Assembly: GCF_005780165.1 (NCBI RefSeq)
Contig: NZ_VAUV01000004.1
Location: 248,001 to 312,000, forward strand
From: Phragmitibacter flavus
Lineage (GTDB): Bacteria > Verrucomicrobiota > Verrucomicrobiia > Verrucomicrobiales > Verrucomicrobiaceae
DNA length: 64,000 nt
Direction: 5' to 3'
In this document: one piece after another, positions 1,686-62,067 of the stretch
How the letters are laid out: every line of letters begins with the position of its first letter
How positions within the stretch are numbered: position 1 is the stretch's first letter
Position numbers and translations under genes: made by a program
Notes under the pieces: model-generated
What the model was told of the DNA's origin: nothing
The model's database searches: none
What the model saw: the letters and a program-made list of their open reading frames with translations, nothing else

Positions 1686-1768
1686 ACTGGCGGCGATCAT
1701 TGGCCTCGATTAAAGGATGCGAGTAGCGACGCCGAACATCAAAGTGATGGCGCACTACACTAGCGGGA

Positions 1769-1859
1769 GCCAACGTTGATCGCGGGGTTATCGTTGACAT
1801 TACGCGGAAGCATAGAGAACAGAGGGGCTAGTAGGTGTTGCCTTGCACGGGTTGTTCGG
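1769..1859 (-). other. Degenerate attC-like site, last of the first cassette array
   Basis: Read on the minus strand it starts TCCGAACAACCCG and ends GATCAACGTTGGCTC, so both outer boxes (GAAC.. and ..CGTTGG) are present. The inner stem is weak compared with the other sites. It overlaps the 3' end of the DUF6714 frame, as other sites here overlap their genes. It marks the left edge of the recognisable array. Confidence 0.45.
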
Positions 1860-2315
1860 AGTCTTCGATTTCGGTGTCTCCTTCGGGTTCAGTCCAGCAT
1901 CTCCAGACCGCCTCTAGTTCTTCGTCGCCACGGTCAGCATAGCGAGTCCGTATCAGGTCGAGGAAGCTGACGATAGCTCGATGCTGCTCCTGGGTGTAGC
2001 GTCGAGGAACATCCCACCCCCCACCACTGAGGAGAAGCTCTATCACAGCGTCGGTGTAAGCCGACTTGGGTTGCCGGATGCCAAGCCTCATCCACCCTGG
2101 GAGAAAATAATGTCGAGCCTCGGGCGTAAAGAAGGTCATGTCCCACGAGGGAATCGCATCCTGTCTGTTGACAACTCATCTGGATCTCTCTCCGCGAAGT
2201 CATCCCGAATCTCAAGGCATTCTCCACACGTGCAATTCGTAATGGATTCCTTCGCTGGTCTAGGGACGTTTGCGAAGGCTGCGTTGATCAAGGTGATGAC
2301 TTGTTCTTCATCCAT
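1828..2315 (-). pseudogene. Cassette gene: DUF6714-like protein, frameshifted
   Basis: Two overlapping minus-strand frames make up one protein. The first (start near 2315, MDEEQVITLINAAF, stop near 2136) ends in ECLEIRDDFAERDP and a short out-of-frame tail. The second (from 2139) begins MTFFTPEARHYFLPGWM. DUF6714 proteins, which are frequent in integron cassettes, carry these two parts in one chain. Reading the second frame back gives AIPSWDMTFFTPEA, so the shift lies at about 2160-2190. The start lies a few bases after the upstream attC, as expected for a cassette. The overlap is ATGA, so translational coupling of two halves is possible, but a frameshift mutation or sequencing error is simpler. 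Confidence 0.65.
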
Positions 2316-2321
2316 TTTCTT

Positions 2322-2375
2322 CCGAACGTCAAGGTATGGCGCGGCGCTAGCCCTCGCCACCACTGCCTTGTTCGT
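2322..2375 (-). other. attC-like site (short)
   Basis: On the minus strand it runs from CGAACAAGGCAG to CTTGACGTTCGG, about 54 bp. The outer boxes CGAAC and GTTCG are exactly complementary and match the neighbouring sites. The interior stem is shorter and less regular than in the other sites. It overlaps the end of the GNAT gene and lies just before the DUF6714 start. Confidence 0.6.
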
Positions 2376-2883
2376 CCCTGTTGGAGATTGAGTAGACTGT
2401 TGTGATGATATCTCGATTTCTCGGATTCCGATATTCTTTTTCTAGGGTCATCCCTGCTTTTTCGGCTGTCCTCCTCGATTGATGGTGATCCTTAGCCATG
2501 TAGCTGTAGAGTTTCTCGAGTTTTAGTTTCTCAAATCCATATTGGATCATCGCACGCGCTGCCTCTGGCGCAAAACCCCGGCCCCAACATTCTTTTCGGA
2601 TTCTGAATCCGACTTCTAATTCTTCTTCGCCGTCGATTATCTGGAGCGTGATTCCACAGTCTCCCACATAGCTGCCAGTCTCTTTCTCGATCACCGAAAA
2701 CAGACCATATCCTGAGTCTTTGAATGTTCGGATGTTCTTGGAAACTATCTTCGCAACCTCATCTCTCGTGTAAGGCTTTGCGTAAAAGGACATTGTCTCA
2801 GAGTCGCCCACGATGCTGAATTCGTCGTCGATATCCTCCCAAGAGAAAGGGCGCAGAATTAGTCTCTCGGTTTCGATTTTCAT
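2347..2883 (-). CDS. Cassette gene: GNAT N-acetyltransferase (RimJ/RimL type)
   Basis: The 178-residue protein starts MKIETERLILRPFSWEDIDD, the usual opening of Acetyltransf_3 / RimJ-RimL proteins, which transfer acetyl from acetyl-CoA to amino groups. The acetyl-CoA loop region is seen as ECWGRGFAPEAARAMI, followed by the typical ARRTAEK-like segment SRRTAEKAGM near residue 150. I chose 2883 rather than the upstream start at 2907 because the family begins here and the upstream part lies inside the attC site. The stop codon lies inside the following attC, as in several cassettes of this array. The substrate cannot be inferred. Confidence 0.88.
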   Translation of the reverse strand: MKIETERLILRPFSWEDIDDEFSIVGDSETMSFYAKPYTRDEVAKIVSKNIRTFKDSGYGLFSVIEKETGSYVGDCGITLQIIDGEEELEVGFRIRKECWGRGFAPEAARAMIQYGFEKLKLEKLYSYMAKDHHQSRRTAEKAGMTLEKEYRNPRNRDIITTVYSISNRDEQGSGGEG

Positions 2884-2890
2884 TCTTTTG

Positions 2891-3014
2891 ACGAACGTAG
2901 AGCACACACACCACTAGTAGCGGCGGCGCGTGTCACTCACGAGGTTGGGGTTGTAGTTACGGAAAATCATCTCAACAGAACGGCTACTAGTGGTCGCTTG
3001 GCGCGGCTTGTTCT
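2891..3014 (-). other. attC site
   Basis: On the minus strand it begins GAACAAGCCGCGCC and ends CTCTACGTTCGT. The inner arms pair over ACCACTAGTAGC and GCTACTAGTGGT. The site is long, about 124 bp. The central loop contains, on the plus strand, GGTTGGGGTTGTAG at 2943-2956. That motif recurs in the sites at 6141-6266 and 61619-61742. Confidence 0.85.
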
Positions 3015-3547
3015 CTCCTCTTTTTCAGGGGGAAGCGCTTCAAATCCGCAACTTGACCTCCGTCATAGGAAGAAAGGGTAAGCTCGTCAATTGTGCCGCT
3101 GATCTCATGCCCTTTGCGGTTCCATTCGGTAGCTAGCTCGTAAAGCTCTTCACGATCCTTGCTCGTGGCAACTCCGATGTGGGGCACATAAGGAATGTCC
3201 AATCTCAGCTTGGGACGCATGAAATCGCCATAAAGCCGATCGTGTAAAAGGCTTATTCCCGAAAATCCTTCATCAGGCACAAGGAAAATGTAGTAGTCAT
3301 CGCATCCGTCATCGTCATACACCAAAGCGTAACGGCAGGTGAAATCCACGGCTGCACTGTCTTCGGCGACGGCTTGAATGTGACGCTCCAAGTCGTTTTG
3401 AGAGATTCCTTCCGACGAGCCCGGAAAGATCATCGTCCAATGTGCATCAACTACGTCCACATATTTCTTGTCGTGTTCACGCCGGAAGCTGCTGATCAGT
3501 TTGGTGTCGGCTTCAGAAAGCCGGGGATATGCGAGGCAGAGTAGCAT
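2987..3547 (-). CDS. Cassette gene: 2H phosphoesterase / 2'-5' RNA ligase-like protein
   Basis: The 186-residue protein has an HWT motif at residues 36-38 (DAHWTMIFPG) and PHIGVA at 122-127. These are positioned like the two H-x-(T/S) motifs of the 2H phosphoesterase superfamily, which acts on 2'-5' bonds or cyclic phosphates in RNA and nucleotides. The second motif has Gly where Thr or Ser is usual, so activity is uncertain. The ATG follows the upstream attC by about 14 bases. The final residues (AAPSDH) and the stop lie inside the downstream attC. Confidence 0.65.
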   Translation of the reverse strand: MLLCLAYPRLSEADTKLISSFRREHDKKYVDVVDAHWTMIFPGSSEGISQNDLERHIQAVAEDSAAVDFTCRYALVYDDDGCDDYYIFLVPDEGFSGISLLHDRLYGDFMRPKLRLDIPYVPHIGVATSKDREELYELATEWNRKGHEISGTIDELTLSSYDGGQVADLKRFPLKKRREQAAPSDH

Positions 3548-3560
3548 CTTGGAATTTCTT

Positions 3561-3646
3561 CCGAACGTCTAGCTCATCCACGGCGGGAAGGGAAGCCCGA
3601 ATTCAAACTGGAGCGTTGCCCGCCGTTGAATCGAGCGTCTTGTTCT
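3561..3646 (-). other. attC site
   Basis: On the minus strand it starts GAACAAGACGCTCG and ends GAGCTAGACGTTCGG. The arms pair between CAACGGCGGG and CCCGCCGTG, and one arm has an extra A (CAACGG against CACGG). This is the unpaired base that orients attC recognition. The central loop carries GAATTCAAACTGGAGCG (plus strand, 3599-3615), shared with the sites at 4281-4371 and 6624-6711. Confidence 0.88.
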
Positions 3647-4274
3647 CTGTCTTGTGAGATGTATCAAGGATGACTTCGCCATCCGGAATTGCTCGATATG
3701 GAAGATCATTCTCACGGTAGTAATCCACGACAGTCTCCATGCTTTCTGATTCAAAGTGGTCACATCGGTAGTGAGGCACAATATAGTAATCAATGATACC
3801 AAGTCCTTCCCATATTGTGGGGTGCTCATATCCGTTGGATTGAGATTCCGGTTCATCAGCCAGATGAATGCCTCTCAGTGAAGGGGAAAGAACACAAATA
3901 CCAGCGCTGTAGCCGCCGTAGAGGAAGTCCTCGTCGTCAACCTTACCATGGAGCAATCGGTCGAGTCCGCTGAGATGCATCGCCTTACGTAGCAAGAAGG
4001 TGTTCCCCCCGACCACCCACAACATACCAGCTGCATCGAGCTTCTCAGATAGGATGTCTTGGGAAGTGAAATAGTCCCGGAGATCCAAGGTCTCTGCAGG
4101 AATTCCGAGGTCAGCCAGCAGGCCAATCTCTCGCTCCATTTTGAGCCTGAGATGCTCGGAATTATTCGAGGAATCAAGCGCGTTAGAAACCAACAGAGCC
4201 GTCTTCCCTCGGGCGAGCTCCGCGAGCTTGTGGCCTTGATCGCCGATAAGAAAAGATGAGAGGTAGAGATGCAT
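3603..4274 (-). CDS. Cassette gene: peptidase E-like protein (family S51)
   Basis: The 223-residue protein resembles dipeptidase E, which cleaves Asp-Xaa dipeptides with a Ser-His-Glu-type site. The nucleophile elbow GGYSAGICVL places Ser at residue 123. Upstream is MLWVVGGNTFLLRK, the family's GG(N/D)-T segment, and downstream VPHYRCDH supplies the likely histidine. The length fits the family. The ATG lies just after the upstream attC. The last 14 codons and the stop are part of the downstream attC, so the C-terminal tail is cassette-derived. Confidence 0.85.
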   Translation of the reverse strand: MHLYLSSFLIGDQGHKLAELARGKTALLVSNALDSSNNSEHLRLKMEREIGLLADLGIPAETLDLRDYFTSQDILSEKLDAAGMLWVVGGNTFLLRKAMHLSGLDRLLHGKVDDEDFLYGGYSAGICVLSPSLRGIHLADEPESQSNGYEHPTIWEGLGIIDYYIVPHYRCDHFESESMETVVDYYRENDLPYRAIPDGEVILDTSHKTENKTLDSTAGNAPV

Positions 4275-4280
4275 TTTTCA

Positions 4281-4371
4281 GAGAACGATAGAGTGGTGGC
4301 ACCGGCGGTGGGAAGCTCGAATTCAAATTGGGACCTTATCGCCGGTTGCCACGCACGTCTCGCCTTGTTGG
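4281..4371 (-). other. attC site
   Basis: On the minus strand it starts CCAACAAGGCGAG and ends CTCTATCGTTCTC. The arms are GTGGCAACCGGCG and CGCCGGTGCCAC, with one extra A in the first arm. The central loop holds GAATTCAAATTGG (plus strand, 4319-4331), close to the loop of two other sites in the array. Confidence 0.85.
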
Positions 4372-4390
4372 GTTTCGAGGGGTGGCATCA

Positions 4391-4774
4391 TTATCCGAAA
4401 AACCTACGACACTGTCTGGAAATATCGTCCAAGGCTCCGGCTTCAGTAAAAACTGGCACTTGAACGTCCCAGCCTTCAAATCCGCCTGTATCTCGAACAC
4501 GAACTCTAATCGTCACTTGCCCTGTTCGTGAAGAGAAAACCTCCAAGCGGAGGTCACCTTCAATGGACTCCCAACATCGCTCATCAGTCCATCCAGTCCA
4601 ATCCTTAGCGCAAGACTCGAAAAGATCTGCAACGCCCGAAGAGTCCGTGTAGGCCCAAATCCCCTTGGTGACTTGAGGTCCGTCGCCCTCAACGGTCACG
4701 CGAAAATAATCGCCATCAATGTCGTGGAATCGCAGATGCCTTCTGCCGACGCTGGATTTGATGACTGCTTCCAA
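4391..4774 (-). CDS. Cassette gene: DUF6228 family protein
   Basis: The 127-residue protein matches the DUF6228 pattern as I know it. It has an early FHDIDGDYFRVTVEG strand region, then LFESCAKDWTGWTDERCW, a strand with G-x-V-x-I-x-V (TGQVTIRVRVR), and an end with EAGALDDISRQCRRFFG. The function is unknown. A small soluble immunity- or regulator-like protein is typical of such cassettes, but this is not shown here. The start is TTG at 4774; no in-frame ATG lies between it and the attC at 4789. The stop comes 20 bases before the downstream attC. Confidence 0.7.
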   Translation of the reverse strand: MEAVIKSSVGRRHLRFHDIDGDYFRVTVEGDGPQVTKGIWAYTDSSGVADLFESCAKDWTGWTDERCWESIEGDLRLEVFSSRTGQVTIRVRVRDTGGFEGWDVQVPVFTEAGALDDISRQCRRFFG

Positions 4775-4788
4775 GGGTTCTTTTATTG

Positions 4789-4914
4789 GCGAACGTTAAA
4801 TGTGGTGCCACGGCGCGGGAGCCGCGCTCCTACGAAGGGAGGGAAGCATGAAGCGTCCCCACGACTCCGTGACGAAGCGGTTAGCGCCGTTGCTCACCCA
4901 CGTCTTGTTAGCCT
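4789..4914 (-). other. attC site
   Basis: On the minus strand it starts GGCTAACAAGACGTGG and ends CACATTTAACGTTCGCC. The L box GGCTAAC fits the RYYYAAC consensus exactly. The arms GAGCAACGGCGC and GCGCCGTGGC pair with an extra A. The centre contains a second hairpin, GGAGC-CGC-GCTCC (plus strand). The upstream cassette gene stops inside the GGCTAAC box. Confidence 0.87.
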
Positions 4915-5450
4915 CTTTCATTATCTGCCGGAGGGGGTGGGCCCATCTTGATGATTGCCTCAAATATCGATTGAACCTTGCCGTGGAGGAAACGCCGTCT
5001 CTTGAACTCGTTGAAATCGACTTCCACCCAAGAACTCTTCGGCGGATTGCGAGCGATGGCCTTAAAGAGATCCGCTGGACCATCAAAGCCTGGACCGGAT
5101 CTATCCTTATCGAGCTTGGGCGGTTCCTTCGTCTCGTAGTGCTTGCACACAATCGTCCTCTCAAACGGAAGATGAAACTCCTGCTTCGACTTTGGGGGGA
5201 CGACGGGACAGCTATCGGGGGACATGATGAACGAGTAGGAATACTTCGGGATGCCATGGTGAATCCGAACCTCATGAATATGGAGGGGAACGTCTTTCGT
5301 CTTGTTGATCAGCGTCAAGATGACGGTCGGCGGCAACTGTCCTACATGTGCTTGGATGATGAATGGAGTGCGAACCTGCATAAAACCCCAAACCGCCTTC
5401 AAGGGTGAAGACAATGAAGACAACCACGAAATTGAAGGTGTGGGCAGCAT
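4908..5450 (-). CDS. Cassette gene: hypothetical protein
   Basis: I do not recognise this 180-residue protein. It is basic, with a strand-rich middle (HVGQLPPTVILTLINKTK) and a charged C-terminus ending ADNERG inside the attC. The ATG at 5450 has little room for a leader. An internal ATG at 5381 (MQVRTPFIIQAHV) preceded by GGTTTGGGG is a fair alternative start. Just upstream, another frame (5514 to about 5385) reads as a membrane helix, FNFVVVFIVFTLEGGLGF. If the gene has a single frameshift near 5385, the protein would be membrane-anchored with an outside domain. This cannot be decided from one sequence. Confidence 0.55.
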   Translation of the reverse strand: MLPTPSISWLSSLSSPLKAVWGFMQVRTPFIIQAHVGQLPPTVILTLINKTKDVPLHIHEVRIHHGIPKYSYSFIMSPDSCPVVPPKSKQEFHLPFERTIVCKHYETKEPPKLDKDRSGPGFDGPADLFKAIARNPPKSSWVEVDFNEFKRRRFLHGKVQSIFEAIIKMGPPPPADNERG

Positions 5451-5465
5451 TGCGGGATTTTTTCT

Positions 5466-5558
5466 GGCTAACGTCTCGGATCAGGCGACGGAGAGCGCCA
5501 GACGTTGCTGACACGACAGATAGCCTTCAAGCCGTTGCCTGCATCCGTTTTGTTCGCC
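5466..5558 (-). other. attC site
   Basis: On the minus strand it starts GGCGAACAAAACGGATG and ends GATCCGAGACGTTAGCC. The terminal GTTAGCC fits the GTTRRRY consensus exactly. The arms GGATGCAGGCAACG and CGTCGCCTGATCC pair with one extra base. The central loop is unrelated to the other sites. Confidence 0.87.
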
Positions 5559-5580
5559 TTTGTGTGGTGGTGATGAGTGG

Positions 5581-6126
5581 TCATGGCTTCAGTCCAAGCA
5601 GCTTGAGTGATGCCGCGATGTGTTCCGAATCAGGGTGGCCCGCAAGACCTGCCCGCAGAAGGTCTCGTCCTGCATCCTGTAATGGAGAATCGGCGGTCAG
5701 TAGTCGGTTCGGGTCACGATACACAGCAAACCAGGGATCACCCTGCTCAGTCACGAAGCGAAAAAGGTCGTCAATACACCGTTCAAACATGTGCCCGCTC
5801 TTGGCGTTGAAGCTGTGATGATAGTGGCCCTCTCTCGTGCGGGTGGGATCACTCATCGGGCCGTTCAGTGCGACCGCCGCATGAGTGTCATTGAGCACTC
5901 GAATGGCGAAGTGAACTCTGAAGGCGACCCTGAAGTTGATTGGGCCTCCGTAACTGCTGCCGCGACGATGGAGATGAATGACATCGACCGTGTGCTCATG
6001 CCTGCGAGTCCACAACATCTTCTTCGACCTCGCATATCCCAACGTGGCTACTCGGGCCGAAAACTCGCGACAGGCGGCCTCCTGTCTGTCTCGGACAATC
6101 TTGGTGGTATCCGGTCCGGCGAGCAT
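5581..6126 (-). CDS. Cassette gene: DUF4304-like protein
   Basis: The 181-residue protein has an N-terminal helix region, then KKMLWTRRHEHTVDVIHLHR and a strand-rich core (FRVAFRVHFAIRVLND). It ends in a helical part (MFERCIDDLFRFVTEQ). The order resembles DUF4304 proteins, which are common as cassette products and of unknown function, but the match is from memory and moderate. The ATG is 15 bases after the attC at 6141. The TGA lies 22 bases before the attC ending at 5558. Confidence 0.5.
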   Translation of the reverse strand: MLAGPDTTKIVRDRQEAACREFSARVATLGYARSKKMLWTRRHEHTVDVIHLHRRGSSYGGPINFRVAFRVHFAIRVLNDTHAAVALNGPMSDPTRTREGHYHHSFNAKSGHMFERCIDDLFRFVTEQGDPWFAVYRDPNRLLTADSPLQDAGRDLLRAGLAGHPDSEHIAASLKLLGLKP

Positions 6127-6140
6127 GGCGCGTGGTGTTG

Positions 6141-6266
6141 GGCGAACGTCGAGGTGTGGAACCGGCTACCGGGAGCGCCACTCCGCAACAGGGTTGAGGG
6201 TTGTAGTAAAGAGGGTCATTTCGACTCGGGGCGGGTAGCCGGTTGTCCACCACCGTCTTGTTCGCC
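6141..6266 (-). other. attC site
   Basis: On the minus strand it starts GGCGAACAAGACGGTGG and ends CACACCTCGACGTTCGCC. The arms pair over AACCGGCTACC and GGTAGCCGGTT. It is long, 126 bp. The loop carries GGGTTGAGGGTTGTAG (plus strand, 6191-6206), the same motif class as in 2891-3014 and 61619-61742. Confidence 0.88.
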
Positions 6267-6608
6267 TTTGGGTTGCTCCTCGTAGAGCCGCCGAAGCTTC
6301 AAGAACAGATCAAGTGCCTCCCGATCAGATGAGGTGTTCTCCTCAATGAAGGTTGTCCATCCATATCCGCCATATGGAAACTTATGGCCGTAATACTCTG
6401 TGACGAACTCGTGGAATCGTGGTGGGATAATCTGATCCAGTTGGGCTCGTGCCTCCTCGCCGAGCATCTCGCTGCGAGCACACTGATAGCCCGAGAGGAA
6501 TGCGACAAAACTGTGAAAATGGTTGTCGCTATCGCCCCAATACATCGCAGGGCGTTTGAAGATGCTCTCCAAAACGTTGCCATCTTGCTTGTGATCGGTG
6601 TCGGTCAT
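6216..6608 (-). CDS. Cassette gene: hypothetical protein with RPAMYWG segment
   Basis: The 130-residue protein is not recognised as a named family. It begins MTDTDHKQDGNVLESIFKRP and has AMYWGDSDNHFHSFVAFLSGYQ, which resembles small cassette proteins of the form RP.MY.G....F..F..GY. A helical C-terminal half follows. The last 20 residues (from KGEQDGGG) and the stop lie within the attC stem, so the tail sequence is dictated by the recombination site. The ATG is 16 bases after the upstream attC. Confidence 0.65.
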   Translation of the reverse strand: MTDTDHKQDGNVLESIFKRPAMYWGDSDNHFHSFVAFLSGYQCARSEMLGEEARAQLDQIIPPRFHEFVTEYYGHKFPYGGYGWTTFIEENTSSDREALDLFLKLRRLYEEQPKGEQDGGGQPATRPESK

Positions 6609-6623
6609 GGAGCGGATTTTTGA

Positions 6624-6711
6624 GGCGAACGTCTAGGCCATACGCGGCGGGGTGGAAAGCCTGAATTCAAACTGGAGCGCTTCCCGCCGTCGTATGAGCC
6701 GGCTTGTTCTG
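6624..6711 (-). other. attC site
   Basis: On the minus strand it starts GAACAAGCCGGCTC and ends GGCCTAGACGTTCGCC. The arms CATACGACGGCGGG and CCCGCCGCGTATG pair with an extra A. The loop GAATTCAAACTGGAGCG (plus strand, 6663-6679) is identical to that of the site at 3561-3646. Confidence 0.88.
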
Positions 6712-7092
6712 TCATTGTTTGGTGAGACGTCGTTGAAGGTCGGTAATCTCGGCGATCCAGGCATCCAGCAGCTCAGTCTCCTCCCAACTGCTTCGCAACC
6801 ATGAGCTGTTCATCACGCGGTTAAGAGCTCGTGCTGCATCACGCCGTAGAAATGGAGAAATTGAGATCCAAGGCAATCCCTTCAGTTCATCATGCGGAAC
6901 TTCAGGTGGGATGCCACAGAGATACGAGACCACCTCTCCAGCTGCAATCGCGCCTTCAGGATCGGAGTCTGCACTATCGCACGGATCGGAAAGCGTCGCG
7001 GTAATGAATCTCTCGGAAGGTGCATCACGAAAGCCATCGAGCCAGTCCATGGCTTGATCATTCTCGAAGGATCTTGTGCCCCAGGCTCCCAT
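6712..7092 (-). CDS. Cassette gene: DUF4259 family protein, first of the array
   Basis: The 126-residue protein starts MGAWGTRSFENDQAMDWLDG, the characteristic DUF4259 opening (MG.WG...F.ND.A.D.L). The length fits this family of unknown function. I take the start at 7092 because the 17 upstream residues in frame do not belong to the family and fall in the palindrome region. Being the rightmost gene of a minus-strand array, it would be the cassette next to an integration site. The stop abuts the attC at 6711. Confidence 0.82.
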   Translation of the reverse strand: MGAWGTRSFENDQAMDWLDGFRDAPSERFITATLSDPCDSADSDPEGAIAAGEVVSYLCGIPPEVPHDELKGLPWISISPFLRRDAARALNRVMNSSWLRSSWEETELLDAWIAEITDLQRRLTKQ

Positions 7093-7100
7093 ATTTTTGA

Positions 7101-7248
7101 CAGAACTACGAGATAGTCTGCGTTTCTGCAGGAATATCAACAACTCTATAGTCTGCGTTTCTGCAGACTAATCCCGGATTTCCAATAGGGGGGATGCAGG
7201 GTTTCGCTCCTATTGCGGTGTTAGTCTGCAAAAACGCGGAAATATCCC
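7101..7248. repeat. Cluster of three related palindromic sites; candidate integration or control region
   Basis: The 19-bp sequence ATAGTCTGCGTTTCTGCAG occurs at 7113-7131 and 7148-7166, 35 bp apart. The second copy extends to a perfect palindrome, TAGTCTGC-GTTTCT-GCAGACTA (7149-7170). A third relative, TAGTCTGCAAAAACGC, starts at 7222. The first and third copies are both followed by an AATATC block. A GTTCTG box on the minus strand (7101-7106) precedes the first cassette gene, where an attI crossover would be expected. Calling it attI is inference. Confidence 0.5.
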
Positions 7249-7335
7249 GGAATATGAGGGTTTACCTGCATGAAGGAATCGCTCAACCAAACCCTCTAAG
7301 AAAAGGCCGGATCGGTTCACACTCCTTAGAGATCA

Positions 7336-7695
7336 TCACCGGCGCGCTCCCAACATCTCCCAAAAGCGCCGCCCCGGTCCTCCGAAAAACTCTCCGACAT
7401 CCCGCCGGGGCTGCCCCGGCATCATTTCCGGCTCCCAAAAATACCGCCGGGGCTCCCCCGGCACCTCATCGCTCTCCGCCACCGCATGCCGGGGCTCCCC
7501 CGGCATCCCTCCACACTCCGCCAACACCCGCCGGGGCCACCCCGGCACTCCTTCGCGCTCTCCGCTGAACTGCCGGGGCCGCCCCGCCAACTCCCCCGAC
7601 TCCCAAAAACCCTGCCGGGGCTGCCCCGGCACCCTTTCCCGCTCCCCAAAATACTGCCGGAACCGTCCCGCCAATTCATTTGCATTCTTTTCCAC
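7336..7695 (-). CDS. Protein made of 14-residue repeats (PG-x-PR repeats)
   Basis: The 119-residue frame (GTG start at 7695) consists of about seven units of 14 residues with the pattern x-(V/M/L)-(P/A)-G-x-P-R-x-x-x-x-E-x-x. Examples are RVPGQPRQGFWESG and EVPGEPRRYFWEPE. It is rich in Arg, Glu and Pro and has no Cys pair or membrane helix. The frame follows the 42-bp DNA period exactly. The Pro-Gly...Pro-Arg residues are encoded in the palindromic core, so it is unclear whether the DNA or the protein is selected. The opposite strand is also open, which lowers confidence that this is a real protein. Function unknown. Confidence 0.4.
   Translation of the reverse strand: MEKNANELAGRFRQYFGERERVPGQPRQGFWESGELAGRPRQFSGEREGVPGWPRRVLAECGGMPGEPRHAVAESDEVPGEPRRYFWEPEMMPGQPRRDVGEFFGGPGRRFWEMLGARR
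7404..7672. repeat. Seven-copy 42-bp tandem array of GC-rich palindromes
   Basis: Cores of the form GCCGGGGCTGCCCCGGC start at 7404, 7446, 7488, 7530, 7572, 7614 and 7656, always exactly 42 bp apart. The first four and the sixth cores are near-perfect inverted repeats. The fifth and seventh have lost pairing (GCCGGGGCCGCCCCGCC, GCCGGAACCGTCCCGCC). The 25 bases between cores are only partly conserved (TCCC and CTCTCC elements). The constant period without length change suggests recent tandem duplication or frame constraint. No cas genes or unique spacers are present. Confidence 0.9.
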
Positions 7696-35800: not shown

Positions 35801-36562
35801 GAGAACTTCGAAGCCGGAGCCGAGTCGACCATCGAGCAGGTCGCGCGTTTCGCGGATGTCGCGCTCGGTGGGCATGAATACGAGCACGTCGCCATCGTGG
35901 GTTTCGATGAGGGCGTCTTCAACCGCGCTGGCGGCGACTTCGATGTGATTTTGATCGTCGAAGCTGGCGGTGGGCTGGTAGCGGATGTCGACTGGGTAGA
36001 GTCGGCCGGAAACTTCGATGATGGGGGCGTTGTCGAAGTGTTTGGAGAAGGCTTCGGTGTCGATGGTTGCCGAGGTGACCAGCAGCTTGAGGTCGGGACG
36101 TTTTTTGAGGAGGCCTTGCAGGTAGCCGAGGAGGAAGTCGATGTTGAGCGAGCGTTCGTGCGCTTCATCGAGAATGAGCATGCTATAGGCGCGCAGCATC
36201 GGATCGCCCTGAATCTCGGCGAGCAGGATGCCGTCGGTCATGAACTTGATGCGGGTGTCGCGACCGGTGTCGTCGTTGAAGCGCATTTTGCAGCCGACTT
36301 CGCGGCCCCAAGTGACTTGCAGTTCTTCGGCGACACGTTTGGAGACGCTCATGGCCGCAACTCGACGGGGCTGGGTGCAGCCGATTTTGCCGCGGATGTC
36401 GGGTCCGGCGGCTTCGAGGCACATTTTGGGCAACTGGGTGGTTTTGCCGGAACCGGTTTCTCCGGCGAGGATGACGACCTGATTCTGCCGGATGGCCGCG
36501 ACGATTTCCTCGCGTCGTGCGCTGATGGGAAGATCGGGGGGATATTGAATGACAGCGGCCAT
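32810..36562 (-). CDS. hrpA: ATP-dependent RNA helicase HrpA
   Basis: The 1250-residue protein has the DEAH-box motor: Walker A GETGSGKTTQL, QPRRVAAMSV, LDEAHERSLN, SATIDTEAFSKHF and the motif VI region QRAGRAGRVQDG. The helicase-associated and OB-fold domains follow, and the long HrpA-specific C-terminal region carries patterns such as HALIQNETP and DLPVITHRTREL. The size is as expected for HrpA, which acts on structured RNA and stalled ribosomes. I start at 36562 (MAAVIQYPPD) rather than 36589. It is convergent with the FAD oxidoreductase gene and divergent from the HAD gene. Confidence 0.95.
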   Translation of the reverse strand: MAAVIQYPPDLPISARREEIVAAIRQNQVVILAGETGSGKTTQLPKMCLEAAGPDIRGKIGCTQPRRVAAMSVSKRVAEELQVTWGREVGCKMRFNDDTGRDTRIKFMTDGILLAEIQGDPMLRAYSMLILDEAHERSLNIDFLLGYLQGLLKKRPDLKLLVTSATIDTEAFSKHFDNAPIIEVSGRLYPVDIRYQPTASFDDQNHIEVAASAVEDALIETHDGDVLVFMPTERDIRETRDLLDGRLGSGFEVLALFGRMASAEQQRIFSPGAKRRVVIATNVAETSITIPRIRYVVDTGLARMSRYNPRTRTKRLPVEPVSQSSANQRAGRAGRVQDGVCIRLYDQEDFDKRPKFTQPEIQRANLAEVILRMKAFKLGDIETFPFINPPVQASITSGYELLHELGALDDTHEMSPLGRELARLPVDPTLGRMLLQARKEDALPELLVIAAGLSIPDPRERPEEAKEQAAAAHKQFWCPDSDFLSLLRLWQAAPDAQGPSGTLNQLRKFCKKNYLSLTRMREWRDVWRQLGDALDHKTPPPDRAQATDTAIHRCILTGHLGHIAMREDRNTYKAAGNRQVTLFPGSNLYQRREKNPKDAALAEKLKQPAWIVAGEIVQTSQLFARSVAKIENTWINELAAHLLQHKYSEPHFQEKTGRVLVWQRNLLHGLEISRQQIDFGKVDPQGATQLFIRHALIQNETPIPHAFHSHNQKLREKIETSLTRIRNNRVYALEDALFDYYEKHFKTTPVSSIHDLNRVITAQSRTNPHFLHATEYDLTHGHDIDCDLALFPDQVGLSNTNTVLPLTYAYKPGQEDDGVTIQVPLHQAHQLSDAQLQWMVPGLREELISVLLRALPKVARRALMPIDPKVAEIARSFEPGSGDFFSSLAQHLTRHYPVTVSASDWPPNSLPAHLQPRIEVLDKQNKTLITDRDLSAIRAKVKTTAIPTGAWEKAVRQFERPALTTWSFGDLPEKVIVEQVGDVTLTGYPGLALINGEVHLRLFRTLALATAATPPAIRKLGETQIGRDLAWLAKELKNLSIGSSPIAKKPASLQDALSNWQAPSKTSSVVAVSNDLPQMAFDHILDHVLQLTPLHPLTEKRFLALCEKARKDLPVITHRTRELFKEIHALKSKIKQSAHRYPEFEADLERLVPADLLRTTPHRQLAHIVRYLRAVQIRAERASINPAKDEDKAWLISDFHDWQNHVSEANRETFRWMLEEYRVQVFAQELGTAQPVSPKRLEALMSASTA

Positions 36563-40831: not shown

Positions 40832-41746
40832 TCACTCGGTCACGTCGTAGACTTCGATCTTCGCAGGGTGGCCCTTCACCTCAAAATGACCACACGGTGT
40901 GAACGCGCTGCGATCCCCCTCCCATCCGGCCAGGAAGGCCCCGCTGACGAGAATAGGCTTGTCCACAATGCGTGTGAGACCTTCCAGACGGAAGGCCAGA
41001 TTGACGGCATCGCCAAGCGCGGTGTTAATGCCACGACCCATGGCACCGATCGCCACTTCACCAACATGCAGTCCAATGCGGCAATCGAGGGTGATGTTTT
41101 TCTGCTCTTTGAGCAATCGACGCGTCGGAGACTCAGCGTCGCGTTCGGCTTTGCGCAAGGCACGGGCGGCCTCAAGGGCACGGGCGAGGGCATCGTGTTC
41201 GACGCTGGTCCAGTAGGCAAACACGCAGTCACCAATAAATTTGTCCACCATGGCACCGGAGCGTTTCATGATGGTGTTGCAGTCGGCATACCATTCGCGC
41301 AAAAGGTCGGCCACCTCAGCAGCCCCGAGAAGGGAACTCATCGCGGTGAATCCTTTCAAATCGCCCACAAAAAGCGTGGCGGGCTGGGTGCGCATCGGCA
41401 CCGGCGTGCGTTTGAGAACCTGGGTTTTGAGTCCAATGGCGGTCAGATCCTGCGTGATGGGCTTGCCGCCTTGGTCGAACAGGAAGATCGCACTGCCGAA
41501 CTGGAGCCGGTCACCGGTGCGCAGGGCGCAGGCATTGGTGAGGGCGACATCGTTGACGTAGCTGCCGTTGGCGCTGCCGAGGTCGACGAGCCAGAAATGG
41601 GCACCTTCGCGACGGATGGTGGCGTGTTGACGTGAAATTCCTGCGTCGCCAAGACGGATGCTGGCCTCCTCGCTTCTGCCGATGAGGTTAAAATCGCCAA
41701 GCGGATAGGTTTCTCCGCCGGTGAGTGCTTTTAAAAGGGCTGGCAT
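40832..41746 (-). CDS. FHA-domain adenylate/guanylate cyclase
   Basis: The 304-residue protein has an N-terminal FHA domain (NLIGRSEEASIRLGDAGISR, then HATI ... DLGSANGSYVND), which binds phosphothreonine. A class III nucleotide cyclase domain follows: FVGDLKGFTAMS with the first metal Asp, and VDKFIGDCVFAYW with the second. The final part holds LGDAVNLAFRLEGL. It makes cAMP or cGMP, probably under control of a Ser/Thr kinase. There is no membrane segment. I start at 41746 because the FHA fold starts there; a long upstream frame overlaps the next gene. Confidence 0.9.
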   Translation of the reverse strand: MPALLKALTGGETYPLGDFNLIGRSEEASIRLGDAGISRQHATIRREGAHFWLVDLGSANGSYVNDVALTNACALRTGDRLQFGSAIFLFDQGGKPITQDLTAIGLKTQVLKRTPVPMRTQPATLFVGDLKGFTAMSSLLGAAEVADLLREWYADCNTIMKRSGAMVDKFIGDCVFAYWTSVEHDALARALEAARALRKAERDAESPTRRLLKEQKNITLDCRIGLHVGEVAIGAMGRGINTALGDAVNLAFRLEGLTRIVDKPILVSGAFLAGWEGDRSAFTPCGHFEVKGHPAKIEVYDVTE

Positions 41747-59903: not shown

Positions 59904-59996
59904 CTGATCCCCACAACCTCAGCCCCCAATTTCACCTCTCACCCTTGCGGGAGTGAGCATTGAGACTGGATGACGGGTTAAAGCTACGTAAAACAT

Positions 59997-60044
59997 GGCC
60001 GACAGAGCAACCCCAGCGGTTGTGCAACCGCACTTTGTTCGGCC
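59997..60044 (-). other. attC-like site, end of the second cassette cluster
   Basis: On the minus strand it starts GGCCGAACAAAGTGC and ends CTCTGTCGGCC. It holds the inner palindrome CGGTTG-CA-CAACCG. It lies 22 bases after the stop of the ATP-grasp cassette gene. It is short (48 bp), and the R box GTCGGCC has lost one expected T. Confidence 0.5.
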
Positions 60045-60065
60045 TTGGTGGTGTATCCCTGCAGT

Positions 60066-60848
60066 TCATTCGGGTAAAGTAAGCATACGAATCAAGCTGT
60101 GGCTACTCCAGTGCTTCCGGTCGGAAACCTGCCCGTCTCCAAGCTCGATGACTCGCCAGACGCCATCACAACGAAGCGCCACATCAACCGTAAAAAATGG
60201 ACTCGCTACCCTGTTGGCTGCTTCAGTGACAATCTGCGGCACCTCACCTGCGTCCGAGTGAACCAGTCCCTGCCAAACAAAGTAGCGCCGCTCAGTGGAA
60301 GTATCATATTCCTCAAAGCGTCTGGCACACAAACCACCCTCAATCTGCCCACGATACTTCGACATTTTGGCAATGACGGCGGGAATTACCGAAAGGTCTC
60401 GAACCACGGAGCCGCCATCGGTAGAAAGAGACTTCACATAGTCCTTCAAAAAGCAACTGTCCCAACCGTGGGCTGCCAGTGCTGCAGCGACGTCGTCCGT
60501 CTCCGAAAAAATCATCGTCTCTGCGGTGAACTCCGTCAAAAGCGGATACCAACAAGGCAAGTGATGGCAAAGGGTGTATGCGGCAACGTCCGTAACGAGA
60601 GTGCCGCCAGCAGCGACAATGGCCTCGAACAGCCGAGTGTATTCTGTGGGAGTCAGCATCCAGCCTCGATACAAAACTGTCTCTCCGCTCTGAATCGCAG
60701 GCCGTGGCCGAAACGTCCCACCTTGGAAGTCCTCGAAACTGAAAATGGAAACGGGAAACCCTTCCGCCTGTGCCGCAGCAAACTCGTCTGCATAGACCTC
60801 ATCGGCTACCTTCGGGCTAAACGTGTCTGCTGGATAGATGAGTCTCAT
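60066..60848 (-). CDS. Cassette gene: ATP-grasp domain protein
   Basis: The 260-residue protein has ATP-grasp features. The N-terminal part holds MRLIYPADTFSPKVADEVYA. The central strand includes DSCFLKDYVKSLSTDGGSVV with the lysine and glycine loop, and the metal-binding end is FTVDVALRCDGVWRVIELGD, the acidic E-x-(G/N)-D motif. It resembles ATP-grasp proteins of DUF4343 type found near antibiotic, immunity or modification genes. It presumably makes an amide or peptide bond; the substrate is unknown. The ATG at 60848 (MRLIYPAD) is chosen since the frame upstream runs through a decayed attC. Confidence 0.75.
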   Translation of the reverse strand: MRLIYPADTFSPKVADEVYADEFAAAQAEGFPVSIFSFEDFQGGTFRPRPAIQSGETVLYRGWMLTPTEYTRLFEAIVAAGGTLVTDVAAYTLCHHLPCWYPLLTEFTAETMIFSETDDVAAALAAHGWDSCFLKDYVKSLSTDGGSVVRDLSVIPAVIAKMSKYRGQIEGGLCARRFEEYDTSTERRYFVWQGLVHSDAGEVPQIVTEAANRVASPFFTVDVALRCDGVWRVIELGDGQVSDRKHWSSHSLIRMLTLPE

Positions 60849-60864
60849 TGGGATACGGTTGGTT

Positions 60865-60897
60865 TGCCGAATGTCGATTCCTCCCACGCCTGACCGG
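60865..60897 (-). other. Half attC site (decayed)
   Basis: On the minus strand GGTCAGGCGTGGGAGGAAT runs into CGACATTCGGC. It matches the right half of the intact site at 61619-61742 (GGTCAGGCGTAGGAGGACT then CGACGTTAGCC). The left half with GAACAAG is missing, so the site has probably lost function by deletion. Confidence 0.6.
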
Positions 60898-60903
60898 ATT
60901 TGA

Positions 60904-61074
60904 TCACCGGAATGACACAAAGAAGAGAGCGCCAAAGGCAATCGCCGCAGCAATCAGACCGATACCGGATGCAAAAAGGAAGGCATGCATACAACCGAGG
61001 ATTCCAGTAATCAGCAATCCAATGATGGCAAGACCGGGAATGGCTGATAAATTAGGCGGTTTCTGTGGAGTCAT
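60904..61074 (-). CDS. Cassette gene: small two-helix membrane protein
   Basis: The 56-residue protein has two hydrophobic helices (IPGLAIIGLLITGILGCMHA and IGLIAAAIAFGALFFVSF) joined by a short turn, with a Pro-rich N-terminus. It has no recognised family. It lies between a GTTCGGC box (minus strand, about 61096-61102) that follows the next cassette and the half attC at 60865. The position and strand mark it as a cassette. Such small membrane proteins are frequent in cassette pools. Confidence 0.6.
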   Translation of the reverse strand: MTPQKPPNLSAIPGLAIIGLLITGILGCMHAFLFASGIGLIAAAIAFGALFFVSFR

Positions 61075-61144
61075 TGTCGGTGTTGGTTAATTAAAGCCGA
61101 ACGTCAAGCGTGAGGAACTGAAAAAGGCTTTAGCGACTGAAGGT

Positions 61145-61618
61145 TTACTCGACTCTATCGTTGACCTGCATCTGAATTCTGGAATAGCGTAACGACAGTA
61201 TAAGACCAATCAGAGCAGTTAGCGCAACTATGACCGGAAGCTGAGTAACTGCGAAAACGTAAAAAGGCTCTGTCTGTGGTCCAATTCTGGATGAGTCGAA
61301 AAACGGAAGGCTTACTCCAACGATAATTACACATATCCAACTGACCTTTTGGAAGAGGCATGCTTTACATGTCGCGAATAGTGTCCCACATAGCCCCAAA
61401 ACAGCCCAGACTCCCGACGCATAGAGAAGTAACGCAAGAATCAGCCGTAGAAATCTTGCATTCCTATCAGCCATGTAATCAGGAGTTCCACTAGCTCCGA
61501 GTTCTCGTAGAGCGTCGCAAAATTCCAGAATAGTTGCTGGGAGCCAAGGTAGCTTCAACAGCGCGATTGGGACCGCGAGAAGAAGCGTGAGAAGAGCGAA
61601 AAGTCGTATAGTTATCAT
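61145..61618 (-). CDS. Cassette gene: four-helix membrane protein
   Basis: The 157-residue protein has four hydrophobic segments (RLFALLTLLLAVPIALLKLP, FLRLILALLLYASGVWAVLG, WICVIIVGVSLPF, LPVIVALTALIGLILSL). It has no recognised family. The first base of the attC GGCTAAC box at 61619 comes directly before the ATG. Downstream the expected attC is reduced to a CTTGACGTTCGGC end near 61096-61110. The function is unknown; membrane topology suggests a small transporter or immunity-like protein, which is speculation. Confidence 0.65.
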   Translation of the reverse strand: MITIRLFALLTLLLAVPIALLKLPWLPATILEFCDALRELGASGTPDYMADRNARFLRLILALLLYASGVWAVLGLCGTLFATCKACLFQKVSWICVIIVGVSLPFFDSSRIGPQTEPFYVFAVTQLPVIVALTALIGLILSLRYSRIQMQVNDRVE

Positions 61619-61742
61619 GGCTAACGTCGAGTCCTCCTACGCCTGACCGGGGGCGAGGCTTCGATTGCGGGTTGAGGTTGTAGCGATCATGACGGCTGGA
61701 ACTGAAGGCGGGTCAGGCGTTAGGAGTGACGTCTTGCTCGGC
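61619..61742 (-). other. attC site (best in the second cluster)
   Basis: On the minus strand it starts GCCGAGCAAGACGTCACTCC and ends GAGGACTCGACGTTAGCC. The arms CTCCTAACGCCTGACC and GGTCAGGCGTAGGAG are complementary except for one extra A in the first arm, the classic unpaired base of attC. The GTTAGCC end fits GTTRRRY. The loop contains GGGTTGAGGTTGTAG (plus strand, 61669-61683), shared with two sites of the array at 1.8-7.1 kb. Confidence 0.88.
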
Positions 61743-61985
61743 TTTGTGATCTTTGGCAACCGGGAGTTCTTCAAACGAAAGCTCAAGTCCCCAAAAACCT
61801 CCAAGTCGGTGATCTAGTGGCCTGATTCGAAGGATGGACTCATCTAGCCGAATTGCCAATGGACCGGCCAGCACAGCGATACCCCTAGGTTCTGCCTCAC
61901 ACATAAACCTACCCTGCCGAGATCCCGCTTCTCCGGTGACATAACCTCTTCCAGACAAGGTGCCATCGTCTGTGAATAGTTCCAT
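61713..61985 (-). CDS. Cassette gene: small soluble hypothetical protein
   Basis: The 90-residue protein (ATG at 61985; an alternative at 61994) has a strand-rich body (MELFTDDGTLSGRGYVTGEA, GIAVLAGPLAIRLDESILRI). It ends in a hydrophilic tail (AKDHKAEQDVTPNA) that lies inside the attC. It has no recognised family. The stop lies in the stem of the downstream attC, a pattern shared with several genes of the first array. Confidence 0.6.
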   Translation of the reverse strand: MELFTDDGTLSGRGYVTGEAGSRQGRFMCEAEPRGIAVLAGPLAIRLDESILRIRPLDHRLGGFWGLELSFEELPVAKDHKAEQDVTPNA

Positions 61986-62006
61986 TGGATGCATTGTCTT
62001 CTTTCT

Positions 62007-62067
62007 GCCGAACAGTTATTCTTCGACAAGTCGTAAAGCATCACGACTCGTCGGTTTACGCTTATCA
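62007..62067 (-). other. attC-like site at the upstream end of the second cluster
   Basis: On the minus strand it reads GATAAGCGTAAACCGACGAG through to AATAACTGTTCGGC. The arms CGACGAGTCGT and ACGACTTGTCG pair around an 8-base loop. The R box GTTCGGC matches the array consensus; the L box is degenerate. It is either the attC of a lost cassette or the remains of the integration site. No gene was found between it and 62282. Confidence 0.5.

Follow-up and report, generated by a model that had tools for sequence, protein, structure and literature searches.

How did an array of gene cassettes come to lie on a chromosome in which no integron integrase can be found? The question is raised by a 64,000-nucleotide stretch of the Phragmitibacter flavus genome (contig NZ_VAUV01000004.1, positions 248,001 to 312,000; hereafter the window), for which a preliminary description made from the sequence alone had reported nine minus-strand cassettes with as many attC-like sites, no tyrosine recombinase, and either a cluster of attC sites lacking an integrase (CALIN) or an array cut from its integron platform. 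Both counts proved right, that of nine genes on the assumption that the overlapping open reading frames (ORFs) at 2136-2363 and 1828-2139 are a single frameshifted DUF6714 gene. The array occupies positions 1730-7106 (-), with each cassette closed by its own attC; of the interval first given, 1769-7106, the right edge is exact, being the G of the first G|TT, and the left edge falls 39 bp short of the true end at 1730. With at least two attC sites and no nearby intI, this is a cassette array of the CALIN type. It is not solitary, as the genome contains about 15 predicted attI elements, 14 of them with attC sites downstream. We consider it quite probable that these represent about 15 integron platforms that have lost intI and yet keep attI and cassettes. 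The idea of an array cut from its whole platform does not hold, as attI remains in place and only intI is gone.

The covariance search suggested in the preliminary description was carried out with two models. R1, trained on nine sites of which three are from the window, recovered eight of the nine window sites, all of them minus-strand matches; the plus strand gave none. R3 was trained on 13 sites, all from outside the window (the other arrays and two relatives), and is the unbiased test: it recovered five of the nine (3559, 6623, 4279, 2889 and 4787, with E-values from 1e-35 to 0.003) together with a further site at 61618 (E=5e-10), and gave nothing else over the whole 64 kb up to E=10. Genome-wide, R1 produced 43 matches at E<=1, grouped in a handful of loci, with a few isolated matches that have no leader element of the kind described below. 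The sites thus cluster in arrays instead of recurring as the same blocks between ordinary genes, the pattern that had been named as the mark of mere interspersed repeats. Searches of Rfam, both at the gathering thresholds and at relaxed ones, yielded nothing of use.

The inner arms of the sites pair, as had been claimed, and do so beyond dinucleotide shuffles: out of 150 shuffles per site, between 0 and 12 equal or exceed the pairing seen (none at four sites), counts that are optimistic because the sites were initially picked by eye. The folding energy as a whole is no more than modestly low. In the alignment of the 91-nt attC type, for which arrays and relatives show 89% identity, pair counts stand at 95% paired versus 34-50% in slid versions; covariation adds little because most pairs are invariant. 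AAC and GTT cores were present in all nine sites as first delimited, although in attC 5 the AAC that aligns with those of the other sites is damaged; the wider consensus GTTRRRY was not retained, the sites being mostly GTTCGNN. Folds read by hand also bear out the unpaired extra A reported for the left arm: most sites have one or two extra unpaired bases there, the first an A adjoining the apical stem and often a second 5-6 nt further out, with sites 7 and 8 less clear. The last site, attC 9, was missed by both covariance models and is assigned on homology and arm pairing (22 versus a shuffle mean of 1.9, equalled by 0 of 150 shuffles). Delimited as 1767-1861 it gave no fold, and comparison with its homologue on contig C1 moved its end to 1730; the ACGTTGG at 1769 that had been taken as the site's end lies inside its loop.

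A cassette in circular form has the first box of its attC paired with its own start. The R'' boxes of the window sites follow this requirement, matching the start of their own cassette at 33 of 45 bases as against 20 of 45 for the next cassette (p=3e-4; p=0.002 with cassette 1 left out), where the comparison was scored on five informative bases in curated sets only, a relaxed pooled scan being too noisy. Seven of the nine cassettes match their own start at 7-8 of 8 bases; the failures are sites 5 and 7, whose R'' boxes are damaged or mismatched, that of attC 5 being apparently short of a few bases. For the first cassettes behind nine leaders the score is 65/72, where shuffles average 50 (p=2e-5).

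The leader element that heads the window array adjoins cassette 1 at G|TT. It contains direct repeats of TGCAGAAACGCAGACTA at -59 and -24 from this junction, which would fit putative IntI binding sites, and an inverted TAGTCTGC at -64. The family numbers 15 copies in this genome, of which a profile found 12 in array regions and a further model, R2, added three; R2 was trained on 11 leaders from this genome, and its matches in the relatives G017, G045, G063 and G180 fall outside the training set. Behind fourteen of the 15, at no more than about 3.3 kb, lie attC sites that share the leader's orientation, and one leader's attC sites are reached only across an IS91-like insertion. Each leader ends in G|TT or a damaged version of it, and upstream of each lie different chromosomal genes, which on our own reading of the ORFs include rpoC (contig C8), a helicase (C3:27 kb) and a nudix hydrolase (C10). 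Two types can be told apart: type A comprises the window copy and three on C1, and type B all others. Just upstream of several leaders there are imperfect tandem repeats, of 42 bp (window ~7380-7660, and at the leader C7:5166) or 21 bp (at the leader C10:93450). On C23 two attI-headed arrays stand in tandem (leaders at 35826 and 41505; locus L009), the attC of the first at 41082-41207 ending about 160 bp before the next leader.

In a complete integron attI lies between intI and the first cassette. This is where the homologue of the leader is found in G045, a complete genome of the same family: the match (E=7e-8 over 143 bp) belongs to an element that extends, divergent from intI, from just upstream of an intact intI to the G|TT of the first cassette, and at that junction its last 17 nt, TGCAGACTATCTGTATG, are identical to those of the leader. 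Given this position, the leader family is predicted to be attI. A DNA search with the leader among genomes of the family reached only this genome, a profile being needed to reach relatives; an exact-pattern scan for the attI end returned one relevant record, Verrucomicrobium sp. BvORR034 (G017), and two others that looked like chance. Other genera of the family also have leader-like elements for which no intact intI was detected (G017, G063 and G180; loci L083-L087). A check of repeats in the arrays of G193, G088 and G114 for common leaders showed those examined in G114 to be attC variants.

That no integron was ever involved, the sites being interspersed palindromic repeats of a generic sort and the leaders equally generic repeats between genes, is hardly credible in this light. 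Some attC sites are indeed highly alike genome-wide and other short repeats lie near leaders, but the complementarity of R'' to the cassette's own start contradicts such an origin, as do the adjacency of the leader to intI in the relative, the confinement of matches to cassette clusters, and the fact that, at E 0.001, 38 of 68 genomes in the family give no match. Off-target insertion, by which an IntI encoded elsewhere would place single cassettes at secondary (attG) sites that then grow into arrays, is a known route to cassettes outside integrons and has been discussed for the dispersed CALINs of Xanthomonas (PMC12444791); isolated leaderless matches such as C14:92280 would accord with it. 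However, attG sites are not expected to have a common sequence of 130-190 bp at the head of every array, as the leaders do, and in a relative the same sequence is the attI of an intact integron. For the leader-bearing arrays this route is disfavoured and very unlikely, while it may still apply to the isolated sites.

What, then, became of the integrase? The genome is a draft of 44 contigs, 99.9% complete, and the preliminary description had proposed a search of it for intI, counting an intI elsewhere or a remnant near 7.1 kb as support. No intI was found in the window, and a profile search found none reaching the TIGR02249 cut-off anywhere in the assembly, the best match scoring 164 bits against a cut-off of 265; at the window array there is no adjacent intact intI with the IntI-specific patch, such as a complete integron would have, and what is kept there is attI at 7107-7273. 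The recombinase behind this best match, on C23 near attC sites, was rejected as IntI because it lacks the IntI patch, scores below the cut-off and stands beside an IS91-like transposase inserted in an array; the other matches to the profile are Xer-like or other recombinases. Within the same order, 69 of 190 genomes have matches above the cut-off, and several have three or four, so multi-integron genomes exist. The intI of G045 is intact (327 aa, 405 bits, IntI patch present). A remnant turned up at the C8 leader, where about 25 codons of the intI N-terminus (C8:246417-246491, at -234 to -311; 60% over 25 aa) stand divergent from attI, next to where intI begins in G045. In Verrucomicrobium sp. 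BvORR034, which has two leaders and no intI match at E 1e-50, an orphan attI has beside it a divergent intI stub of 78 codons (G017:C25:5508-5744), 67% identical to the G045 IntI over 79 aa. The stubs beside these two orphan leaders indicate that both loci once had an intI of their own.

These stubs bear on another history, in which a single IntI, since lost or else encoded on an unassembled replicon, would have acted in trans on many attI insertion points spread through the chromosome. Such a distributed integron, which if real would mean cassette capture at a dozen places simultaneously, would account for 15 attI-like sites with no local intI, for the same attC type behind type A and type B leaders, and for the 85-93% identity of the three C1 leaders, all found inside 16 kb. 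We regard it as unlikely, seeing that the two stub-bearing loci had their own intI, that the assembly contains no intI, and that no recently duplicated cassettes are found between arrays.

On the preferred reading, that of platforms which have each lost intI, an IntI like those that relatives still possess would have captured the cassettes at the attI G|TT, as the anatomy suggests, and intI would then have been deleted at each platform; the loss is read from its absence across the assembly and from the 5' stubs at the two orphan loci. Dispersal would most likely have come about as entire integrons were repeatedly acquired or duplicated and each then had its intI deleted, and not through single cassettes being inserted off target. 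An active integrase is costly, and in experiments it is easily inactivated (PMC3510236), so a pressure for the loss of intI is plausible. Without an IntI supplied in trans the cassettes would now stay where they are, and the leader may still supply a promoter for the array. Several observations weigh against this account. A clear intI stub is present at only one of the 15 loci in this genome, and leader homology stops at varied distances, from -110 to -515, so that we infer a complete intI to have been lost from each of the loci. Leader types A and B have only part of their sequence in common, being alignable over about 140 bp; the leader at C7:214528 has no attC behind it; a consensus scan of the window leader gave no promoter-like site; and with 44 contigs an intI may have escaped detection, lying in a gap or on a plasmid that was not assembled. 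No relative of the same genus turned up in the comparisons.

Features of the window discussed here, with positions in window coordinates; R1 and R3 are the attC covariance models
Feature	Positions	Strand	Evidence or remark
attI-like leader, type A, ~165 bp	7107..7273	-	homologue between intI and cassette 1 in G045
Cassette 1 gene, DUF4259	6712..7092	-	PF14078 E=6e-18; cassette start 7106
attC 1, 91 nt	6623..6713	-	R3 88 bits, E=4e-29; R1
Cassette 2 gene, 130 aa	6216..6608	-	no family found
attC 2, 128 nt, overlaps cassette 2 gene end	6140..6267	-	R1, fold
Cassette 3 gene, 181 aa	5581..6126	-	no family found
attC 3, 95 nt	5465..5559	-	R1 E=0.0095, fold
Cassette 4 gene, 180 aa	4908..5450	-	no family found
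attC 4, 128 nt	4787..4914	-	R3 E=0.003; R1
Cassette 5 gene, DUF6228	4391..4774	-	PF19739 E=2.5e-22
attC 5, R'' side damaged by small deletion	4279..4369	-	R3 E=1e-12; R1
Cassette 6 gene, peptidase S51	3603..4274	-	PF03575 E=7e-19
attC 6, 91 nt	3559..3649	-	R3 106 bits, E=1e-35; R1
Cassette 7 gene, 2'-5' RNA ligase / 2H phosphoesterase	2987..3547	-	PF13563 E=3e-16
attC 7, 129 nt, R'' mismatched to own cassette start	2889..3017	-	R3 E=9e-11
Cassette 8 gene, GNAT acetyltransferase, approximate start codon	2347..2881	-	PF13302 E=2e-33
attC 8, 58 nt, overlaps cassette 8 gene end	2320..2377	-	R1 E=6e-4
Cassette 9 gene, DUF6714, two overlapping ORFs	1828..2363	-	PF20461 E=3e-6, second ORF only
attC 9, 132 nt, array end	1730..1861	-	homologue C1:64254-64384; arm pairing
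Second, decayed cassette array	59950..62010	-	attC 61618-61743 (R3 5e-10) and degenerate sites near 61100, 60880 and 59960-60040

The cargo of the array is cassette-like, as the preliminary description had it, with Pfam families alongside genes of no recognizable family; the DUF6714 gene of cassette 9 is probably split by a frameshift. PADLOC recognized no defence genes among the window array's cassettes. At the left array end an ORF of 124 aa (1311-1685, +) adjoins; a guess that it is a truncated piece of a restriction enzyme gained no backing from Pfam, where no family was found. The second array adjoins an apparent squalene-cyclase-like gene, and no leader of type A or B was found upstream of it. 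An IS91-like transposase and a tyrosine recombinase occupy 36.8-39.0 kb of C23 (L009), and a piece of about 312 bp on C8 (313866-314177; L052) is shared with this IS91-like element, without the coding part. The two stop at an identical position, CTTCG|TTCAACAAGG, within an attC, and the IS91-type element seems to target attC sites.

Integrons have already been reported in Verrucomicrobiota (PMC8618304), so a cassette array in this phylum is not itself new. The origin of integrase-less clusters is regarded as open, with integrase loss, rearrangement and off-target insertion all considered (PMC8618304), and attI outside class 1 is described as poorly known and is not detected by IntegronFinder (PMC9024848). 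In the open-access literature we found no described chromosome with about 15 attI sites and no integrase, nor one with multiple or orphan attI, which is weak evidence. Integrase-less clusters are usually found through attC alone. Here the conserved attI at 14 arrays, the intI-attI junction of G045 and the stubs at two orphan loci together make the origin of the clusters readable as integrase loss. The dispersed integrase-free attI sites would be ready acceptors for an incoming IntI, and some 20 attI sequences from Verrucomicrobiaceae are now at hand for binding and recombination tests.

Each array is by definition a CALIN (PMC9024848), having in common with those recognized by IntegronFinder at least two attC sites, cassette genes and no intI nearby. 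The CALIN as defined holds no attI information, whereas here attI heads nearly every array, at about 15 loci in one genome. The sedentary chromosomal integron at ilvD in Xanthomonas is similar in that the integrase was inactivated or lost while cassettes persist, but it is one ancestral platform at one locus with some CALINs elsewhere (PMC12444791), in contrast to the many attI-headed arrays at different loci, with no intI anywhere in the assembly, seen here. The intact integron of G045 (complete genome of 8,220,857 bp) shares the homologous attI, its identical junction end and the 91-nt attC type, and differs in retaining a full-length intI and in having only one detected attI.

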